This document shows positions 1,825-10,377 of a DNA stretch of 30,194 nt, one piece after another. Positions within the stretch are counted from its first letter, which is position 1, and each line of letters starts with the position of its first letter. A program made the position numbers and the translations under genes. The notes under the pieces were generated by a model. The model saw only the letters and a program-made list of their open reading frames with translations. It was not told where the DNA came from and did not search any database. Origin of the DNA: a virus; the IMG/VR virus record IMGVR_UViG_3300037296_000070, positions 1 through 30,194 of that record. One strand, given 5' to 3'.

Positions 1825-1923
1825 ATGAATTATTCAAAATTGGTTTTTGCGGTTGCTGCATCAACAACGATTGTTATCGCTGTAAATATTATTGTTTTTA
1901 ACCATCTTTGGGAGCCAGTATGA
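1825..1923 (+). CDS. Small single-span membrane peptide (32 aa)
   Basis: The ATG at 1825 opens a 32-residue frame with a GAGGGA ribosome site just upstream. Residues about 6-26 (LVFAVAASTTIVIAVNIIVF) form one hydrophobic span with a short polar tail. Its TGA overlaps the ATG of the Q-like gene (ATGA), supporting translation. Function is unknown; it resembles the small membrane peptides common between phage middle genes. Confidence 0.55.
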   Translation: MNYSKLVFAVAASTTIVIAVNIIVFNHLWEPV

Positions 1924-2387
1924 GCGACGTAATCGATAGGGACGTGAAGGTTAAACTTGCTGCGTGGGGTGCATGGACTCGTAACACTGGCAGCGGTCAA
2001 GGTTGCTCAAGTCCAGCGCAAGCGCTTATCAACTGTGCACCAGTCTGTGACAGTGACTACAAGCGCTATGCTAAATACGAAGCGTTTGAGCACATAAGTG
2101 ATGAAGAAGCGTTAGAAGTAGAAGGTGCTATGGCAACACTCAAACGCTACTCAGCGCGATTAAACGTAGCATTAGGGCATATGCTAGACAATGAGCTTGA
2201 CGATGATAACTTGCTAATCTGCGTGTTAATGTACCCAGTGTTAGAGATGCACTTTCGATACGATGAATCGTTTAGTCGTATCGCAAGAGAAATGACTAAA
2301 GATTTAGGCAAGAAAATTACAGACGTTAAGATTAAAGCCATTATGGAGCGTGGCGCGGGATTTATAGAAGGTGTTTTAATAAAGTGA
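1920..2387 (+). CDS. Q: Q-type late antitermination protein
   Basis: This is probably the late-gene antiterminator, which loads on RNA polymerase at the late promoter so that it reads through terminators. It has the pattern of the phage 82/phi80-type Q family: an N-terminal AAWGAWTR motif, a middle DEEALEVEGAMATLK segment, then a RYDESFSRIA helix-turn-helix-like stretch and a C-terminal AGFIEGVL. I chose the ATG at 1920 over a TTG at 1908 because GGGAG at 1910-1914 is well spaced for it and it overlaps the preceding stop as ATGA. The protein is 155 aa, in the normal range. A consensus promoter followed by a terminator lies about 1.2 kb downstream. Confidence 0.75.
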   Translation: MSDVIDRDVKVKLAAWGAWTRNTGSGQGCSSPAQALINCAPVCDSDYKRYAKYEAFEHISDEEALEVEGAMATLKRYSARLNVALGHMLDNELDDDNLLICVLMYPVLEMHFRYDESFSRIAREMTKDLGKKITDVKIKAIMERGAGFIEGVLIK

Positions 2388-2415
2388 TTTATTTTAAATT
2401 AATTGCAAATAGTAG

Positions 2416-2444
2416 TTGCATATTTATAGTGGTCACTATATAAT
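2416..2444 (+). promoter_or_regulatory. Promoter with overlapping operator-like palindrome
   Basis: A perfect -10 TATAAT at 2439-2444 lies 17 bp from a weak -35 TTGCAT at 2416-2421. The spacer and -10 are covered by a 7-bp inverted repeat, TATAGTG-GT-CACTATA (2425-2440). Such a repeat would let a dimeric repressor block polymerase. It would drive the AT-rich gene starting at 2493. Confidence 0.6.
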
Positions 2445-2492
2445 AAACACATACCAAGCAAGATACTTAAACAAACCCCAGAGGGCGTTATC

Positions 2493-2831
2493 ATGAATAC
2501 TTCAGCTATCTTCAAAGCAGCACACGCATTAACTAAAGCAACTATCCAAACTAGCGATAACTACGCTGCAACTTTCGCAATTTGTTTAAAAGTTATCTAC
2601 GCAGAAAGCAAAGAAGAAACTATAGAGGCTAAACTTCTAGCAATGGGTTTAAAAGTTTGGGAAAAAGCTGAAATGAAACGCATCTATATGACTTGCGCTC
2701 AATTCAATCAAGCGACTGGCTTTAGCTTCAACCTTAACGATAAAAACAACAAAATATTCTTTGATTGTACGACAAATGCAATCATGCGTAGCTACAAAAG
2801 CAAAACCCCTTCAATCGAAGTTCAATTTTAA
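2493..2831 (+). CDS. Small AT-rich accessory protein of unknown function (112 aa)
   Basis: This 112-residue protein begins NTSAIFKAAHALTKA and has a KLLAMGLKVWEKAEMKRIYM core. It resembles small phage/plasmid proteins with an IFKxAHxL start, for which I know no function. Codons are visibly richer in A/T-ending forms (AAA, GAA, GCA, ACT) than in the flanking genes, and it has its own promoter/operator. Both suggest separately acquired cargo. GAGGG at 2481-2485 is the likely ribosome site. No catalytic motif, signal peptide or membrane segment is seen. Confidence 0.7.
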   Translation: MNTSAIFKAAHALTKATIQTSDNYAATFAICLKVIYAESKEETIEAKLLAMGLKVWEKAEMKRIYMTCAQFNQATGFSFNLNDKNNKIFFDCTTNAIMRSYKSKTPSIEVQF

Positions 2832-2857
2832 TTAAACATAAAAAAGGAATATATGTC

Positions 2858-3046
2858 ATGAGTCAATTTAAAATAAGTTATCAGCATCGCGAAGCAGATT
2901 TTGGTCAAGCTAAGCGAATTTGGTCTAGCAACTATCAGATAGTAGATGCAAGCAGCGAGGATGATGCTAAGTCTATATTTGAACAAGACTGGTCATCGAG
3001 CAATGAGTTTGAAATAAAAGAAATTAGCAAGTGTGGTGCTCAGTAG
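2858..3046 (+). CDS. Small hypothetical protein (62 aa)
   Basis: A 62-residue ORF begins MSQFKISYQHREADFG and ends CGAQ. AAAAAGGA at 2841-2848 gives a ribosome site for the ATG at 2858. The nearby ATG at 2853 runs into a stop at once, so it is not used. The sequence is acidic with no recognised motif. It lies between the AT-rich unknown gene and a DUF1456-like gene, probably on the same transcript. Confidence 0.55.
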   Translation: MSQFKISYQHREADFGQAKRIWSSNYQIVDASSEDDAKSIFEQDWSSSNEFEIKEISKCGAQ

Positions 3047-3124
3047 TCTTATAATCAGCGCATAGCTGGCTTAGAAAGTAGTTCTTATAATTTTATCCGC
3101 TGCGTAGGCGGTTTAAGGTGCAAT

Positions 3125-3391
3125 ATGAATAACAATTATGTATTTCAAAGACTACTAGCGACTTTCGATCTAAGTCGCAATCACGATCTGACCGCTAAGG
3201 TTTTCGAGCTTGGCGGTCAGCGCAGCGAGGTCAGCAAGTCTTTAGTTAAATCATGGCGTACTCATGATATTAATAGCAAGCATTACAAGCCGATGCGTGA
3301 TGATACGCTAAAAATATTCTTAGACGGGATTCAACAAGCGAGTAAAGACGGGTTAATAACAATCTATCTAAGCGAGGTGGGCGATGACTGA
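3125..3391 (+). CDS. DUF1456-like (YehS-type) small protein
   Basis: The 88-residue protein resembles one DUF1456 repeat. It has an N-terminal NNNYVFQRLLATFDLS helix, a LTAKVFELGG segment, a VSKSLVKSW helix, and a C-terminal DDTLKIFLDGI that matches the family's LxxFLDGLI ending. YehS-type proteins normally carry two such repeats, so this is a half-length form. The biochemical role of the family is not known to me. An AAGGTG site precedes the ATG. The stop overlaps the next ATG by eight bases, so the two are probably coupled. Confidence 0.55.
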   Translation: MNNNYVFQRLLATFDLSRNHDLTAKVFELGGQRSEVSKSLVKSWRTHDINSKHYKPMRDDTLKIFLDGIQQASKDGLITIYLSEVGDD

Positions 3392-3566
3392 GACAGCGCA
3401 AGCAAAAGCAAGCAGTCGTTATGAGTCTAAGACATACAGACCGCGAGTTGTGCTTAATCCCGATAACGATATTGAGCGGCAAATCATTGATGCGATAAAG
3501 TCTGATGATATGAGTTTTAGTGAACGATGCAAGCAGCTACTATCAAAGCACTATGATATAACTTGA
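3384..3566 (+). CDS. Small ribbon-helix-helix-like protein (60 aa)
   Basis: The last 40 residues (RPRVVLNPDNDIERQIIDAI, then a helix to KQLLSKHY) have the strand-helix-helix layout of Arc/CopG-type repressors. This is by pattern only. If right, it could bind a palindromic operator such as those at 2425-2440 or 3568-3580. The gene overlaps the DUF1456-like gene, and its own stop (3564-3566) lies inside the -35 box of the next promoter. A small non-regulatory protein is the alternative. Confidence 0.5.
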   Translation: MTETAQAKASSRYESKTYRPRVVLNPDNDIERQIIDAIKSDDMSFSERCKQLLSKHYDIT

Positions 3567-3592
3567 CAGCTCAATGAGCTATGTAGTAATAT
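3563..3592 (+). promoter_or_regulatory. Candidate late promoter (pR'-like) with palindromic spacer
   Basis: A consensus -35 TTGACA at 3563-3568 is followed at 18 bp by TAATAT (3587-3592). The spacer starts with the 13-bp palindrome AGCTCA-A-TGAGCT (3568-3580). A leader of about 100 bases follows and ends at a strong terminator (3694-3726), ahead of the packaging genes. With a Q-like gene upstream, this matches the lambdoid pR'-tR' layout. No transcription data support it here. Confidence 0.55.
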
Positions 3593-3693
3593 CCTTTTAT
3601 GCTCCGCATTTTATGTGTTGAGCGAACAAAATAGCACCGTAATCACTGCTCACTAAGCATGACTTTATGATGTAAATTGCGGTCATTAATTCC

Positions 3694-3726
3694 AAAGCCC
3701 TATCATTAATTTGATGGGGCTTTTTT
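3694..3726 (+). terminator. Intrinsic terminator (tR'-like)
   Basis: A 12-bp stem pairs 3694-3705 with 3712-3723 with one G-T wobble. The loop is TTAATT, and a T run at 3721-3726 follows. It ends the leader from the 3563 promoter and nearly repeats the terminator at 29954-29986. Confidence 0.85.
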
Positions 3727-3754
3727 ACGTCTACTTTTTGGCAGGGATGCTGAT

Positions 3755-3947: not shown

Positions 3948-3973
3948 ATACTCGCTGATTGGAGGTGAGCATT

Positions 3974-4537
3974 TTGAAAAGACCAATGCCACCAACCAAT
4001 GATCTACGCCCATTAATGGCTGCGCCTGAAATATATGAATGGCTGCACGCTACGATACTCAACCCTGATCATGAGTGGTTTAACGAAGACCATAGACACT
4101 TGATGGAATACTCAGTAACTGAAATAGCGTTTATGTGGGCCCAAAGCGAATATGTCAAAGCCGGTAAGCAGATATTAGGCCAGTGTGAAAAAGTCATGAT
4201 GATGGCCGGAGGTTGGAAGAAGACACGTCAAGAAATGTGGTTTGAAGACACGTTGGGCGCGGTACCGGATTATCTAATCACTTTAGATGCTAATTATTGC
4301 CGTGATTGTACAGACGCTGAGTTTGCCGCATTGGTTGAGCATGAGATTTATCACATGAGGCATAAACCAGATATGTTTGGTGATCCATCGTTTAAAGCAG
4401 ACGGCAGACCACAGCTTGAATTGATTGCTCACGATGTTGAGGAGTTCTTTGGCGTCGTCAGAAGATACGGCGGTGATGAAGCGGTTATTAAAATGGCTGA
4501 GCTGCAAGATTGTGAGCCAACTATAAACATAAATTAG
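3974..4537 (+). CDS. Putative phage metallopeptidase (HExxH)
   Basis: This resembles the phage metallopeptidase family often encoded just before terminase genes. It has a zinc-binding HEIYH at residues 123-127 within LVEHEIYHM, and a downstream AHDVEEFFGVVRRYG segment whose H153/D154/E156 could supply another ligand. I place the start at TTG 3974 because a near-perfect GGAGGTGA (3961-3968) precedes it. A frame-compatible TTG at 3959 has no ribosome site. The protein is 187 aa with no signal peptide. Its target is unknown. Confidence 0.7.
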   Translation: MKRPMPPTNDLRPLMAAPEIYEWLHATILNPDHEWFNEDHRHLMEYSVTEIAFMWAQSEYVKAGKQILGQCEKVMMMAGGWKKTRQEMWFEDTLGAVPDYLITLDANYCRDCTDAEFAALVEHEIYHMRHKPDMFGDPSFKADGRPQLELIAHDVEEFFGVVRRYGGDEAVIKMAELQDCEPTININ

Positions 4538-6285: not shown

Positions 6286-7805
6286 ATGATATAACTGAAA
6301 AGCCGCGCTACCGTGTAACAGCAGGTAAGGCGCTAAGCCAAGAGCAGGTGACAGACCTACGCGGTAAGACCTTTTACAGACACCTAATCCGCACTGACAC
6401 TGACGAGATACTTAAAAAAGCGGGTATCAGTCGTCATGCGCTAAAGACATTGCTTACGGACCCAGACATTGACCAAGCGATTGATAGACGTGAAGAAGAG
6501 TTAGGCAGTGCGATCTATACGATTACACCAAGTGAGGGCGCTCTTGCTGATTTTATCTATGAGCAGTTAGACCTGCACCTTGAGACGATATTACAAGGCT
6601 CATCGCTTAGTAAGTGGTACGGCTATGATGTCATTGAAATGCTATGGGGCAAAGATAGTAATGGGCGTAATGTAGTTACCTCAATGATGTCAAAACCTAT
6701 TCAATGGTTTGAGCCATTGTCTGGCGGTGCGCTGCAATGGTTTCCGAACGATGGTAGTCAGCCAAAAATGATTAGTGATCAAACTGACTTTTACTATCGC
6801 TATCTATACCAGCAGCATAAGCCGACATATCTAAACCCTAAAGGCAAATCATTATTAAGCCGCGTGTATTGGTTGCATTACTTCAAAACCAATGGCTGGC
6901 GTTTTTGGTCTAAGTTCTTGGAGCGTTTCGGTAGTCCACTACTGATTGGTAAGACTGACGCGTCTAGCGATTCTGACGCTCAAGACTTTGCCAATGCACT
7001 ACTAGCAGCGCACAACTCAGGTGTCGTCACTATCGGCATTGATGAGGATGTGAAAGCGGTAACCGGTGGTAGCAATGGTGAGGCATTTATTGGCTATGAC
7101 TCAGTGGTTAAGCAGAGTATTACGACTTACTTGCTAGGTCAGACACTTACCAGTGGCACGGATAAGGGCGGCACTTACGGCCAAGGCGTAGTACACCAAG
7201 AGCAGCAAGAGATTATCTTTAGCAGCGACCGTAAGCATGCGCTTAAGGCTGTCCAACATTTTATTGATGTGATCTGTACTGCTAATGGTTTTGAAGCGCC
7301 TGAGTTTAAGTGGGTGGCTAAGAAGTTCATCAACCAAGACCAGTTAGACGCTGACAAGAAAGCACACGACATGGGCGTTCGCTTTACCAAGTCATACTTT
7401 GTTGATGAGCATGGCTATAACGAGCAGCATATCGCTCACATGGATTATGGTGATGGCCAAGGCGCTGTTAAGTTGGCAACGTCGACACAAGCCAACCGTT
7501 ATACGTCAATGGCTAGCAAAACATGGTTGCCATTTAAAGCTGCTGACGGTGATAGTGAATTTACTGATGAGCAAATGGAGCTTGAATCGGTCGCAGATGA
7601 TGCGCTCAATGCAAGCGTACAGCCGTTTGATGCTAATGCGGTGCTATCGGCTATAAGTAACGCTACGGACGCTGACAGCTTACGTGAGTCGCTATTTAAC
7701 CTATGCGGTGAAGGACTGGCTGAGAGTGATTTTACCCAGTTGGTTAATACCGCTATACAGGTCGCTGATGTGCATGGTTTTGCTGATGAATCGAGTGAGG
7801 TTTAG
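6282..7805 (+). CDS. Portal protein (DUF935, Mu gp29-like)
   Basis: This forms the dodecameric ring at the capsid vertex through which DNA enters and leaves. It resembles Mu gp29/DUF935 portals in length (507 aa) and in segments: GKTFYRHLIRTDTDEILKKA near the N-terminus, DPDIDQAIDRREEEL, the YGYDVIEMLWG strand, and the FWSKFLERFGSPLLIGK core near residue 210. The C-terminus is acidic and variable. It starts as ATGA on the terminase stop. A Mu-type portal beside lambda-type capsid proteins shows the mosaic make-up of the head module. Confidence 0.9.
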   Translation: MNDITEKPRYRVTAGKALSQEQVTDLRGKTFYRHLIRTDTDEILKKAGISRHALKTLLTDPDIDQAIDRREEELGSAIYTITPSEGALADFIYEQLDLHLETILQGSSLSKWYGYDVIEMLWGKDSNGRNVVTSMMSKPIQWFEPLSGGALQWFPNDGSQPKMISDQTDFYYRYLYQQHKPTYLNPKGKSLLSRVYWLHYFKTNGWRFWSKFLERFGSPLLIGKTDASSDSDAQDFANALLAAHNSGVVTIGIDEDVKAVTGGSNGEAFIGYDSVVKQSITTYLLGQTLTSGTDKGGTYGQGVVHQEQQEIIFSSDRKHALKAVQHFIDVICTANGFEAPEFKWVAKKFINQDQLDADKKAHDMGVRFTKSYFVDEHGYNEQHIAHMDYGDGQGAVKLATSTQANRYTSMASKTWLPFKAADGDSEFTDEQMELESVADDALNASVQPFDANAVLSAISNATDADSLRESLFNLCGEGLAESDFTQLVNTAIQVADVHGFADESSEV

Positions 7806-7808
7806 GTT

Positions 7809-7985
7809 ATGCCAATAGAATCAGTAATGATATTTTTTCTTATTACTTTTATATTTTGGGTGTCTGTATTTTATTTTGTCATTCGAGATGGCGAGAATGG
7901 CAACAAAGGCGGTTTACGTTTTGTTGCTGATATACCGGAAAGCAATAAAAAACCACCCAAGCCGCCACATAATCCGCATAAGTAG
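7809..7985 (+). CDS. Small single-span membrane protein (58 aa)
   Basis: The ATG at 7809 follows the portal stop by three bases. Residues about 5-25 (SVMIFFLITFIFWVSVFYFVI) form a strong membrane span. A polar tail then ends in a Lys/Pro/His-rich stretch (KKPPKPPHNPHK). It sits between portal and minor head genes, where a structural role is unlikely. Host-membrane accessory functions are possible but unproven. Confidence 0.6.
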   Translation: MPIESVMIFFLITFIFWVSVFYFVIRDGENGNKGGLRFVADIPESNKKPPKPPHNPHK

Positions 7986-7994
7986 GCGTAACTA

Positions 7995-8795
7995 ATGGCA
8001 ACGACAACAGCAGGATTTGACGTACAGTTTATCGAAGCCATTGCTTACGCGCTTAATCGTGAGGTGGTGCTACCTGATAATTACTACAACGTCATGACAC
8101 CCATACAGCGCCAGCAAGCGGTATCTATCGCAGGGCTTGCACAGACTGAGCAGATAAAGCATGTGATGGGCTTGGTTAATGAGCAATTAGTTGATGGCGG
8201 TACGTTTGCGGACTTTCAGAACGCTGTTAAGAAGGGCGATATTGATATTAATCTACCAAAGCATCGGCTAGATAATATCTTTCGCACCAACATCCAAGGT
8301 GCTTATGGTCGTGGTCGATGGTATCAACAGCAGCAGAATAAAGATGAGCGTCCTTATCTGATGCGTGACGGTATTAATGATATTAGACAGCGCCCAGCGC
8401 ATAAGGTGCTAGATGGCGTTGTAAGACATATCGATGACCCACTTTGGGCGATACACTACGCTCCTTCAGGATATCGCTGCCGGTGCTTCTGTCGTTCTCT
8501 TACGAAGTCACAAGCTGAGGCTAAAGGTATAACCGTCGATGACGACTTGCCTAATGTGCCAAATGATGAAGGCTGGATTGGCGGCACGCCAGCACAGTAC
8601 ACAGGCAATATGAATAAGCTGGTTAATGACAAGATAGCCGAGCTTGCTATCACGTACTACAAGCAGTCAGATGCGATATTGGCAGCAAGACAGCGCATTG
8701 AGGCAGCTATCACGGTGATGTTAGCGCAACCAGTGCCGGAGCTTGCATTGATGATTGATGAGGCAAAAGAGCTGATTGAGGAAGAGAGCGAATGA
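7995..8795 (+). CDS. Phage head morphogenesis protein (Mu gp30/SPP1 gp7-like)
   Basis: This minor head protein family sits beside the portal gene and takes part in capsid assembly or DNA ejection. The diagnostic C-terminal part is clear: RLDNIFRTNIQGAYGRGRW, then RPYLMRDGINDIRQRPAHKVLDG, then DPLWAIHYAPSGYRCRCFCRSL with clustered Cys residues. At 266 aa it is near the short end of the family. The stop overlaps the next small ORF as ATGA. Confidence 0.85.
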   Translation: MATTTAGFDVQFIEAIAYALNREVVLPDNYYNVMTPIQRQQAVSIAGLAQTEQIKHVMGLVNEQLVDGGTFADFQNAVKKGDIDINLPKHRLDNIFRTNIQGAYGRGRWYQQQQNKDERPYLMRDGINDIRQRPAHKVLDGVVRHIDDPLWAIHYAPSGYRCRCFCRSLTKSQAEAKGITVDDDLPNVPNDEGWIGGTPAQYTGNMNKLVNDKIAELAITYYKQSDAILAARQRIEAAITVMLAQPVPELALMIDEAKELIEEESE

Positions 8796-8890
8796 ATAAA
8801 TCACGAATACTCAGAGCTATTGTGCTGATAGCTGATATAGCGATGACCGTCTACACCAAACGCAAGAAACACAAACAAGACCGCCGATAA
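8792..8890 (+). CDS. Tiny cationic peptide (32 aa)
   Basis: The ATG overlaps the minor-head stop (ATGA) and opens 32 codons. A short hydrophobic helix (ILRAIVLIADIAMTVY) is followed by a strongly basic tail (TKRKKHKQDRR). Its stop codon lies in the loop of the next terminator. This may be a real coupled peptide or only an open stretch; I cannot assign a function. Confidence 0.4.
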   Translation: MNKSRILRAIVLIADIAMTVYTKRKKHKQDRR

Positions 8891-8902
8891 GGGCGGTTTT
8901 TT
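8880..8902 (+). terminator. Intrinsic terminator
   Basis: ACCGCC (8880-8885) pairs with GGCGGT (8892-8897) around a six-base loop, and a T run at 8897-8902 follows. The linker TTAATGCCTATTTTTT then leads to the ribosome site of the Acb2-like gene. Confidence 0.85.
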
Positions 8903-8927
8903 AATGCCTATTTTTTAAGGATTCATT

Positions 8928-9152
8928 ATGGACAATCAACACAAGAAGATTAAAGGCTACCGCGAATTATCACAAACTGAAATTGACTTGATGAACAAGA
9001 TTAAAACTAAAGGCGCTGAGCTTGGCGAATTGGTTGATGATCTGCAAAACACTGATGGCTTAGACCAACGCGCTATTGCTATTGGAAAAACTGAATTACA
9101 GACAGGTACGATGTGGCTTGTACGTGGAGTGGCGCAACCTGAATCTTTTTAA
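8928..9152 (+). CDS. acb2: Acb2-like cyclic-nucleotide sponge (anti-CBASS)
   Basis: The 74-residue protein matches the Acb2/Tad1 hairpin-domain family. It has KIKGYRELSQTEIDLMNKIK at residues 7-26, a middle LGELVDDLQ helix, then DQRAIAIGKTELQTGTMWLVRGVAQP at about 46-71. Family members form hexamers that trap the cyclic di- and trinucleotide signals of CBASS, and some also block Thoeris signals. As I recall, Y11 and K26 of the Pseudomonas phage protein are binding residues; here Y11 and K26 fall at the same numbers. AAGGA at 8917-8921 is the ribosome site. It sits among head genes and has no promoter of its own that I can see, so it is probably expressed late. Confidence 0.85.
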   Translation: MDNQHKKIKGYRELSQTEIDLMNKIKTKGAELGELVDDLQNTDGLDQRAIAIGKTELQTGTMWLVRGVAQPESF

Positions 9153-9162
9153 TGGGTGAAAT

Positions 9163-10377
9163 ATGAACTTACAAGCAAAGATTAAGCGCGACATTGATAG
9201 TCATGCGCTCATGGCTTGCCACGATTTGAATGGTGAGCTTGCGTCTATCGACTTCAAAGCGTTATCACGTTATAGCGATGACGACAGTGAAGCGGCTTAC
9301 ACGGTCGAGAATGGTGTAGCGACTATTGATGTGCGCGGTCTGCTAGTGCCTGAGACCTCAAGCGATTATCGATCACGGGGTGTGACAGGCTATGCGAACT
9401 TAGCTGACTACATACAGCAAGCCAATGACGACTACGCGGTGACTAACATTGTCTTAGACATTGATAGTGTCGGTGGTTACGTTGCAGGTCTTGACGGTAT
9501 CACTGAGACTATCTACCAGTCTGCAAAGCCAATCGAAACGTTTGTCAGTGGCGATATGTATTCAGCCGCTTACTGGTTAGGCGCTAGTACAAGCAAGGTT
9601 ACAGCGTCTAAGCAATCAGGTATTGGCAGTATTGGCGTATTTGTCGTGCATAGCGAACAAAGCAAGATGTTAAATGACCACGGTGAGAAATACTCGCTGT
9701 TTAGATCAGGCAAGTGGAAAGCTGCATTTAATTGGTTTAGCCCGTTAACCGACGATGAAAAGACGCGCTTACAAGAAGGCGTCGATGAATCCGCAAGCAT
9801 ATTTTTTAATCATGTAGCAGCACAGCGCAATGTTGATGCCAAAACAGTCAAAGGCTGGGAAGGCGACGACTTCACTGCTACGAAAGCCAAAGAATTAGGT
9901 CTGATTGATGTGATTGCGGATAGCATTGCAGCCTCAAGCAGTACCGCACAGAGCAACAATAACCCCGAGGAGTACGAATTGAACGAGTTACAACTGGCGC
10001 AAGCCAAAATCAAGCAGCTAGAGGATCAGGCGGTGTCTGATAAAGCTGCATCTGATCAAAAAATCGCTGATGCCAAAGCTGAAGCACAAGCTGCCAAGCA
10101 AAAACTAGCAGAGTCTCAAGCATCAACACGCCAAGCCGCTATCGATAAGTTAGCTGCCGTCACTGATCGCGAGTTTACCGACGAGCAAGTGACCGAGCTT
10201 AAAGCAATGGATCAAGGTGCGTTCAATGTATTTATTGCATTCTCAGCGCCAGTTGCACCCAAAGCACCTAAGCTGCCAGATGGTTTGGATAAAGCTCAAG
10301 CAACCAATGGCCGCGAAGGTGGCGAAAGTAAAATTCTAGCAGCTGTTGAAGCCGCAAAAGCACAAGGAGCTAAATAA
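9163..10377 (+). CDS. S49-family capsid maturation protease with C-terminal scaffold part (lambda gpC-like)
   Basis: This SppA-type serine protease processes the prohead. The substrate strand VLDIDSVGGYVAGL is at about 97-110, the catalytic Ser is S134 in SGDMYSAAYWLGAS, SGIGSIGVFVVH is at 152-163, and K186 in RSGKWKAAF is the likely dyad lysine. After about residue 265 comes a long Ala/Lys/Gln-rich coiled-coil scaffold-like region ending in an acidic/Ala tail. Length is 404 aa, close to lambda gpC (439). The stop shares a base with the decoration gene ATG. Confidence 0.9.
   Translation: MNLQAKIKRDIDSHALMACHDLNGELASIDFKALSRYSDDDSEAAYTVENGVATIDVRGLLVPETSSDYRSRGVTGYANLADYIQQANDDYAVTNIVLDIDSVGGYVAGLDGITETIYQSAKPIETFVSGDMYSAAYWLGASTSKVTASKQSGIGSIGVFVVHSEQSKMLNDHGEKYSLFRSGKWKAAFNWFSPLTDDEKTRLQEGVDESASIFFNHVAAQRNVDAKTVKGWEGDDFTATKAKELGLIDVIADSIAASSSTAQSNNNPEEYELNELQLAQAKIKQLEDQAVSDKAASDQKIADAKAEAQAAKQKLAESQASTRQAAIDKLAAVTDREFTDEQVTELKAMDQGAFNVFIAFSAPVAPKAPKLPDGLDKAQATNGREGGESKILAAVEAAKAQGAK
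9979..10377 (+). CDS. Probable nested scaffold protein (Nu3-like, internal in-frame start)
   Basis: Inside the protease gene a GAGGAG (9967-9972) lies six bases before an in-frame TTG at 9979, codon L273. Starting there gives a 132-residue helical protein, MNELQLAQAKIKQLEDQ onward, without the protease domain. This mirrors lambda, where scaffold Nu3 is translated from a start within gene C. The site sits exactly at the domain boundary. Use of the start is inferred and has no experimental support. Confidence 0.55.
   Translation: MNELQLAQAKIKQLEDQAVSDKAASDQKIADAKAEAQAAKQKLAESQASTRQAAIDKLAAVTDREFTDEQVTELKAMDQGAFNVFIAFSAPVAPKAPKLPDGLDKAQATNGREGGESKILAAVEAAKAQGAK

Follow-up and report, generated by a model that had tools for sequence, protein, structure and literature searches.

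The locus and its 74-residue product

The window, the whole stretch of viral DNA analysed here, is 30,194 nucleotides long. Among its head genes lies an ORF of 74 codons with an ATG start, which we call acb2. It stands between the gene for a Mu F-like minor head protein (headF) and that for an S49 head maturation protease, as shown in Table 1. The table also lists a 32-aa ORF that the first-pass annotation left out.

Table 1. Positions of acb2, of its neighbours and of the features that may govern late transcription.
Feature	Position	Strand	Evidence
Putative antitermination protein Q	1908..2387	+	PF06530 E=4.3e-4 with 20.6 bits (cut-off 26, not reached)
Candidate late promoter, TTGACA-18-TAATAT	3563..3592	+	10/12 consensus bases; consensus match only
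Leader terminator (tR'-like) before the late operon	3694..3723	+	fold -18.5 kcal/mol, z -6.1
Minor head protein (Mu F-like), bordering the cargo site on the left	7995..8795	+	PF04233 E=5.4e-17; phrog_220
32-aa basic/hydrophobic ORF, overlapping the head gene stop, own TAA in the hairpin loop	8792..8890	+	homologues in relatives
Intrinsic-terminator-type hairpin directly before acb2, ACCGCC-GATAAG-GGCGGT-TTTTT	8877..8900	+	fold -14.5 kcal/mol, z -4.2
AAGGA, Shine-Dalgarno-like, 6 nt before the acb2 ATG	8917..8921	+	read in sequence
acb2, 74-aa Acb2-family putative cyclic-nucleotide sponge	8928..9152	+	PF24729, PDB matches, Y11/K26, model
Head maturation protease (S49), bordering the cargo site on the right	9163..10377	+	PF01343 E=2.2e-25; phrog_53

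The first-pass annotation had called the product Acb2-like and had quoted the segments IKGYRELS...MNKIK and IGKTELQTG...RGVAQP, whose letters are exact. In a Pfam search the protein matched PF24729 (Acb2_Tad1_hairpin) over positions 1-58 of the 58-position profile with 70.6 bits (E=1.2e-19), against a curated cut-off of 27 bits. A sequence search of the PDB gave E=1.7e-19 for the Acb2 chain of Pseudomonas phage PaP2, named p26 (8H2J and others), and E=1.5e-4 for T4 Vs.4. With tblastn, homologues were found in 504 phage records, near full length in 502, and the closest phage homologue (73% identical) was that of Acinetobacter phage Ac42. The NCBIfam search of the protein assigned no family, and in the literature library searched there was no paper linking Acb2 and Psychrobacter. 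These matches confirm the ORF at 8928-9152 as a genuine Acb2 family member, and chance is excluded. The family itself is ordinary and already described; only the position in a late capsid operon adds to what is known.

Seven columns (M1, G10, Y11, K26, M62, R66 and P71) are invariant among 59 aligned homologues, including PaMx33 Acb2 and a T4-type Vs.4. Y11 and K26, which the first-pass annotation had placed at ligand-contact positions, are thus kept in 59 of 59. The corresponding residues are also Y11 and K26 in PaMx33 Acb2, and Y8 and K23 in a T4-type Vs.4. K26 is a residue that we take to be a ligand contact in Acb2. In T4 Acb2, Y8A abolishes dinucleotide binding and F82 stacks on the ligand (PMC12657218). 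The position of F82 is Ala69 in our protein and is alanine in nearly all homologues too. Most of the codon differences between acb2 and seven relatives leave the amino acid unchanged (26-35 synonymous against 18-20), the pattern expected of a protein under selection.

The AlphaFold2 monomer is a helical hairpin with a mean pLDDT of 88.7. Its helices, at residues 11-13, 16-40 and 47-69, correspond to the short N-terminal helix and the two long antiparallel helices expected of Acb2. The nine best PDB fold matches of the model are all Acb2/Vs.4 chains, several with cGAMP bound, and are headed by 8h2j, 8h2x and 7uq2. The best matches in sequence and fold together were the cGAMP complexes of Acb2 (8H2J) and T4 Vs.4 (7UQ2). 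Sequence, residues and predicted fold thus give the Acb2 identity good support, and the biochemical function is a prediction from them.

Exactly 74 residues is the commonest length among the collected homologues (46 of 59), in a sample biased towards the query. Crystallised PaMx33-type Acb2 has 93 aa, and the 74-aa form is without 19 residues of the hairpin tip, where the two long helices are joined. We found solved structures of longer members and none of a short one. Because of this and the shorter tip, the hexamer geometry and the trinucleotide site discussed below are assumed.

Host, CBASS and the likely ligand

Four Psychrobacter genomes encode relatives of the major head protein, with identities of 85-93%. 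Among 105 Psychrobacter species genomes, 8 contain a protease relative. Judged by these two genes, the host is a Psychrobacter, within the Moraxellaceae that had been thought probable from the sequence.

CD-NTases are the cyclases of CBASS. A CD-NTase domain scored over the cut-off in 14 of the 105 Psychrobacter species genomes, and all seven CD-NTases tested were CBASS cyclases by PADLOC. E1-E2 genes (type II CBASS) often lie beside them, and some neighbours encode 2TM or 4TM effectors. Two genomes (G002 and G044) carry both a backbone prophage and a CD-NTase, and six Psychrobacter genomes encode an Acb2 homologue. A characterised family of anti-CBASS sponges is thereby extended to the phages of Psychrobacter, a genus with CBASS in about one-seventh of its species.

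The CD-NTase genes directly adjoin a ribonucleotide reductase large-subunit gene in L141 and L144, and do so by ORF layout in L138-L143 and L145. This suggests that the ribonucleotide reductase neighbourhood is a recurrent site of defence insertion in several Psychrobacter species.

We considered whether an Acb2-fold sponge of this kind might serve mainly for a ligand other than a CBASS dinucleotide, for example cA3 (of CBASS or type III CRISPR) or a Panoptes product, the short hairpin having shifted the preference. The tip, 19 residues shorter than in PaMx33 Acb2, would allow this, and Acb2 homologues do differ in ligand range (PMC12043709). One Psychrobacter genome also has a strong match to mCpol, a Panoptes-type gene (L173; G070:C12:463431-463766). 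However, Y11 and K26 of the dinucleotide pocket are both kept, and the neighbours of Psychrobacter CBASS cyclases are mostly type II-like. We therefore regard a different main ligand as unlikely, and a CBASS dinucleotide is the preferred reading. The compact 74-aa form would make a useful test of the part played by the hairpin tip in ligand range. Panoptes is triggered by Acb2 (PMC12657218), and given the mCpol match acb2 may carry a cost.

Probable late expression

The putative Q gene, the promoter match and the leader terminator resemble, by analogy, the pR'-tR' layout of a lambdoid late leader. In a Psychrobacter prophage, a Q-like homologue just before the late leader matches PF06530 over the cut-off (1.8e-9), and relatives have a hairpin with a T-tract at or near the place of the leader terminator. 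The region 1908-3730 thus has a late leader of lambdoid type, and the portal and F proteins of the phage are Mu-like. The ORF at 3959-4537 is a transposase by PHROG 513 and a phage metallopeptidase by Pfam (PF18894, 1.3e-33), and the PHROG label looks misleading. A Mu-like phage, as the portal, the F protein and the PHROG transposase label might indicate, was dropped on account of the Pfam result and the lambdoid leader layout.

The hairpin before acb2 was missed on the + strand by the terminator scan because its stem pairs with the T-run, and was revealed by folding. Its exact core recurs at the headF-protease junction in 7 relatives, with near variants in others. The exact string occurs once in the 105 Psychrobacter genomes, in the same prophage context. 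Between the hairpin and the ATG of acb2 there are 27 nt, in which no sigma-70-like promoter was matched, and we rejected a late promoter at this place for both reasons. The gene accordingly lies behind a terminator and has no evident promoter of its own, as had been read from the sequence.

Since the protease and the major head protein are encoded downstream, the hairpin must be passed efficiently late in infection, and acb2 is then probably made at near capsid-gene levels. In the first-pass annotation the dose would depend on late antitermination. For this part the support is indirect: it comes from the Q-like gene, itself below the cut-off, and from the leader terminator, which together suggest expression with the capsid by antitermination. 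This phage may be peculiar in its late timing, as most IMG/VR homologues lie near replication genes.

The 32-aa ORF has homologues in most backbone relatives and no Pfam match. A form ending in KQDRR, with its stop in a GC-rich hairpin loop, was seen in seven related loci. The ORF and the hairpin recur either before or after the variable gene, and ORF variants with other endings (e.g. KRRKRK) are without the hairpin. Such an arrangement might make the hairpin an attenuator governed by translation of the 32-aa ORF: the TAA stands inside the loop, and the hairpin and this end of the ORF recur together. However, the differently ending variants without a hairpin still precede the protease, so that such control would be non-essential, and the capsid genes downstream need strong expression anyway. 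Attenuation seems to us improbable, and we retain Q antitermination as the likely way past the hairpin.

Acb2 proteins are compact homohexamers that take up cyclic di- and trinucleotides and let them go intact. As such a sponge works stoichiometrically, strong late expression would suit it. According to a review, phages lacking acb2 escape CBASS through mutation of the major capsid protein (PMC10419184). A sponge made together with the capsid could thus match supply to the time of signalling.

A cargo site in the head operon, and known relatives of the sponge

In about 20 distinct relatives that have both headF and the protease, the interval between the two genes ranges from 65 to 1336 bp and holds different small genes; in one more distant relative it is about 1.76 kb. 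No acb2 was found at this junction among the about 20 relatives recovered, a set from which very near records were possibly missed. The site (8793-9162 in the window; L082-L131 and L163-L166 among relatives) holds small genes of 80-95, 127, 84-88 and 260 aa, and others. Pfam and PADLOC returned almost nothing for these alternative genes, apart from a weak DUF1947 in one and a below-cut-off crAss001_48 match in another. The interval between the portal gene and headF (7803-7994 and the same place in relatives) varies from about 10 bp to more than 1 kb; cargo may be inserted here as well.

A related prophage in genome G046 has a 49%-identical acb2 elsewhere, upstream of the small terminase. In L163 (reverse complement, 4025-4249) the acb2 of a related Psychrobacter prophage is followed by a ParB-like gene, with the small terminase downstream of the two. 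The other homologues in IMG/VR are mostly near replication genes, yet acb2 lies directly before the protease in Acinetobacter phage Ab9, and in three Psychrobacter loci it is followed by a head-tail adaptor-like gene. These placements mark acb2 as mobile cargo, which has entered head operons on more than one occasion. A role for the small product in head structure or assembly, instead of in defence inhibition, might be implied by the location between headF and the protease and by the placement in Ab9. It is very improbable, since acb2 is absent from the site in about 20 relatives whose head genes are the same, and homologues occur in the replication regions of unrelated phages.

The headF-protease junction might be a counter-defence slot of the late operon, where other, unrelated small genes could be inhibitors made together with the capsid, which has a link of its own to CBASS escape; we hold this tentatively and think it rather doubtful. 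Such a slot would give a short list of candidate inhibitors.

Our preferred reading, to which we give a probability of about 0.9, is that acb2 of this temperate-type Psychrobacter siphophage encodes a predicted hexameric sponge for CBASS dinucleotides, carried in a cargo slot and probably transcribed by Q-dependent read-through. By the published sponge mechanism of Acb2 (PMC12657218, PMC12043709), the product most likely assembles as the Acb2 homohexamer, in which CBASS cyclic dinucleotides, e.g. 3',3'-cGAMP, would be sequestered by paired protomers, with Tyr11 and Lys26 on either side. The trimer interface may in addition take up cyclic trinucleotides. CBASS effectors would thereby stay inactive during virion production, with acb2 transcribed along with the capsid genes, probably by a Q-modified polymerase that passes both the leader terminator and the hairpin.

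Thoeris had also been named as a possible target, and this finds no support. Tad1 (Thoeris anti-defence 1) has the hairpin domain in common with the 74-aa protein, and one Pfam model describes it in both. Its hallmark is an N-terminal antiparallel beta-sheet domain, and sequestration of gcADPR has been published for Tad1 and Tad2 (PMC12043709). Unlike Tad1, which has this domain of its own and binds gcADPR, the 74-aa protein is without it, and its model has helices only. We rejected Thoeris as the target on these grounds, the missing domain and gcADPR binding being a property of Tad1 and Tad2. A search for STALD (ThsA) gave zero matches in the 105 Psychrobacter genomes, and zero in the controls likewise.

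Closer comparisons are with the dinucleotide sponges. Vs.4 (Acb2) of T4 and its relatives (7UQ2) shares the IKGY motif, the equivalents of Tyr11 and Lys26 and the two-helix hairpin. However, Vs.4 is longer, the RB14 copy is 39% identical, and F82 is replaced in our protein. Ac42p014, the Ac42 homologue, is likewise 74 aa long, whereas its gene is found close to that for a topoisomerase in a T4-like phage and its function is unannotated. Acb2 of Pseudomonas phages PaP2/PaMx33 (8H2J, 8H2X, 8IXZ) is 54% identical over the alignment, with the first 12 residues identical, Y11 and K26 in place, and the C-terminal block IGKT..QTG..R..AQP.SF in common. It differs in its longer hairpin tip, and its gene lies outside the head operon slot and adjoins a convergent structural gene.
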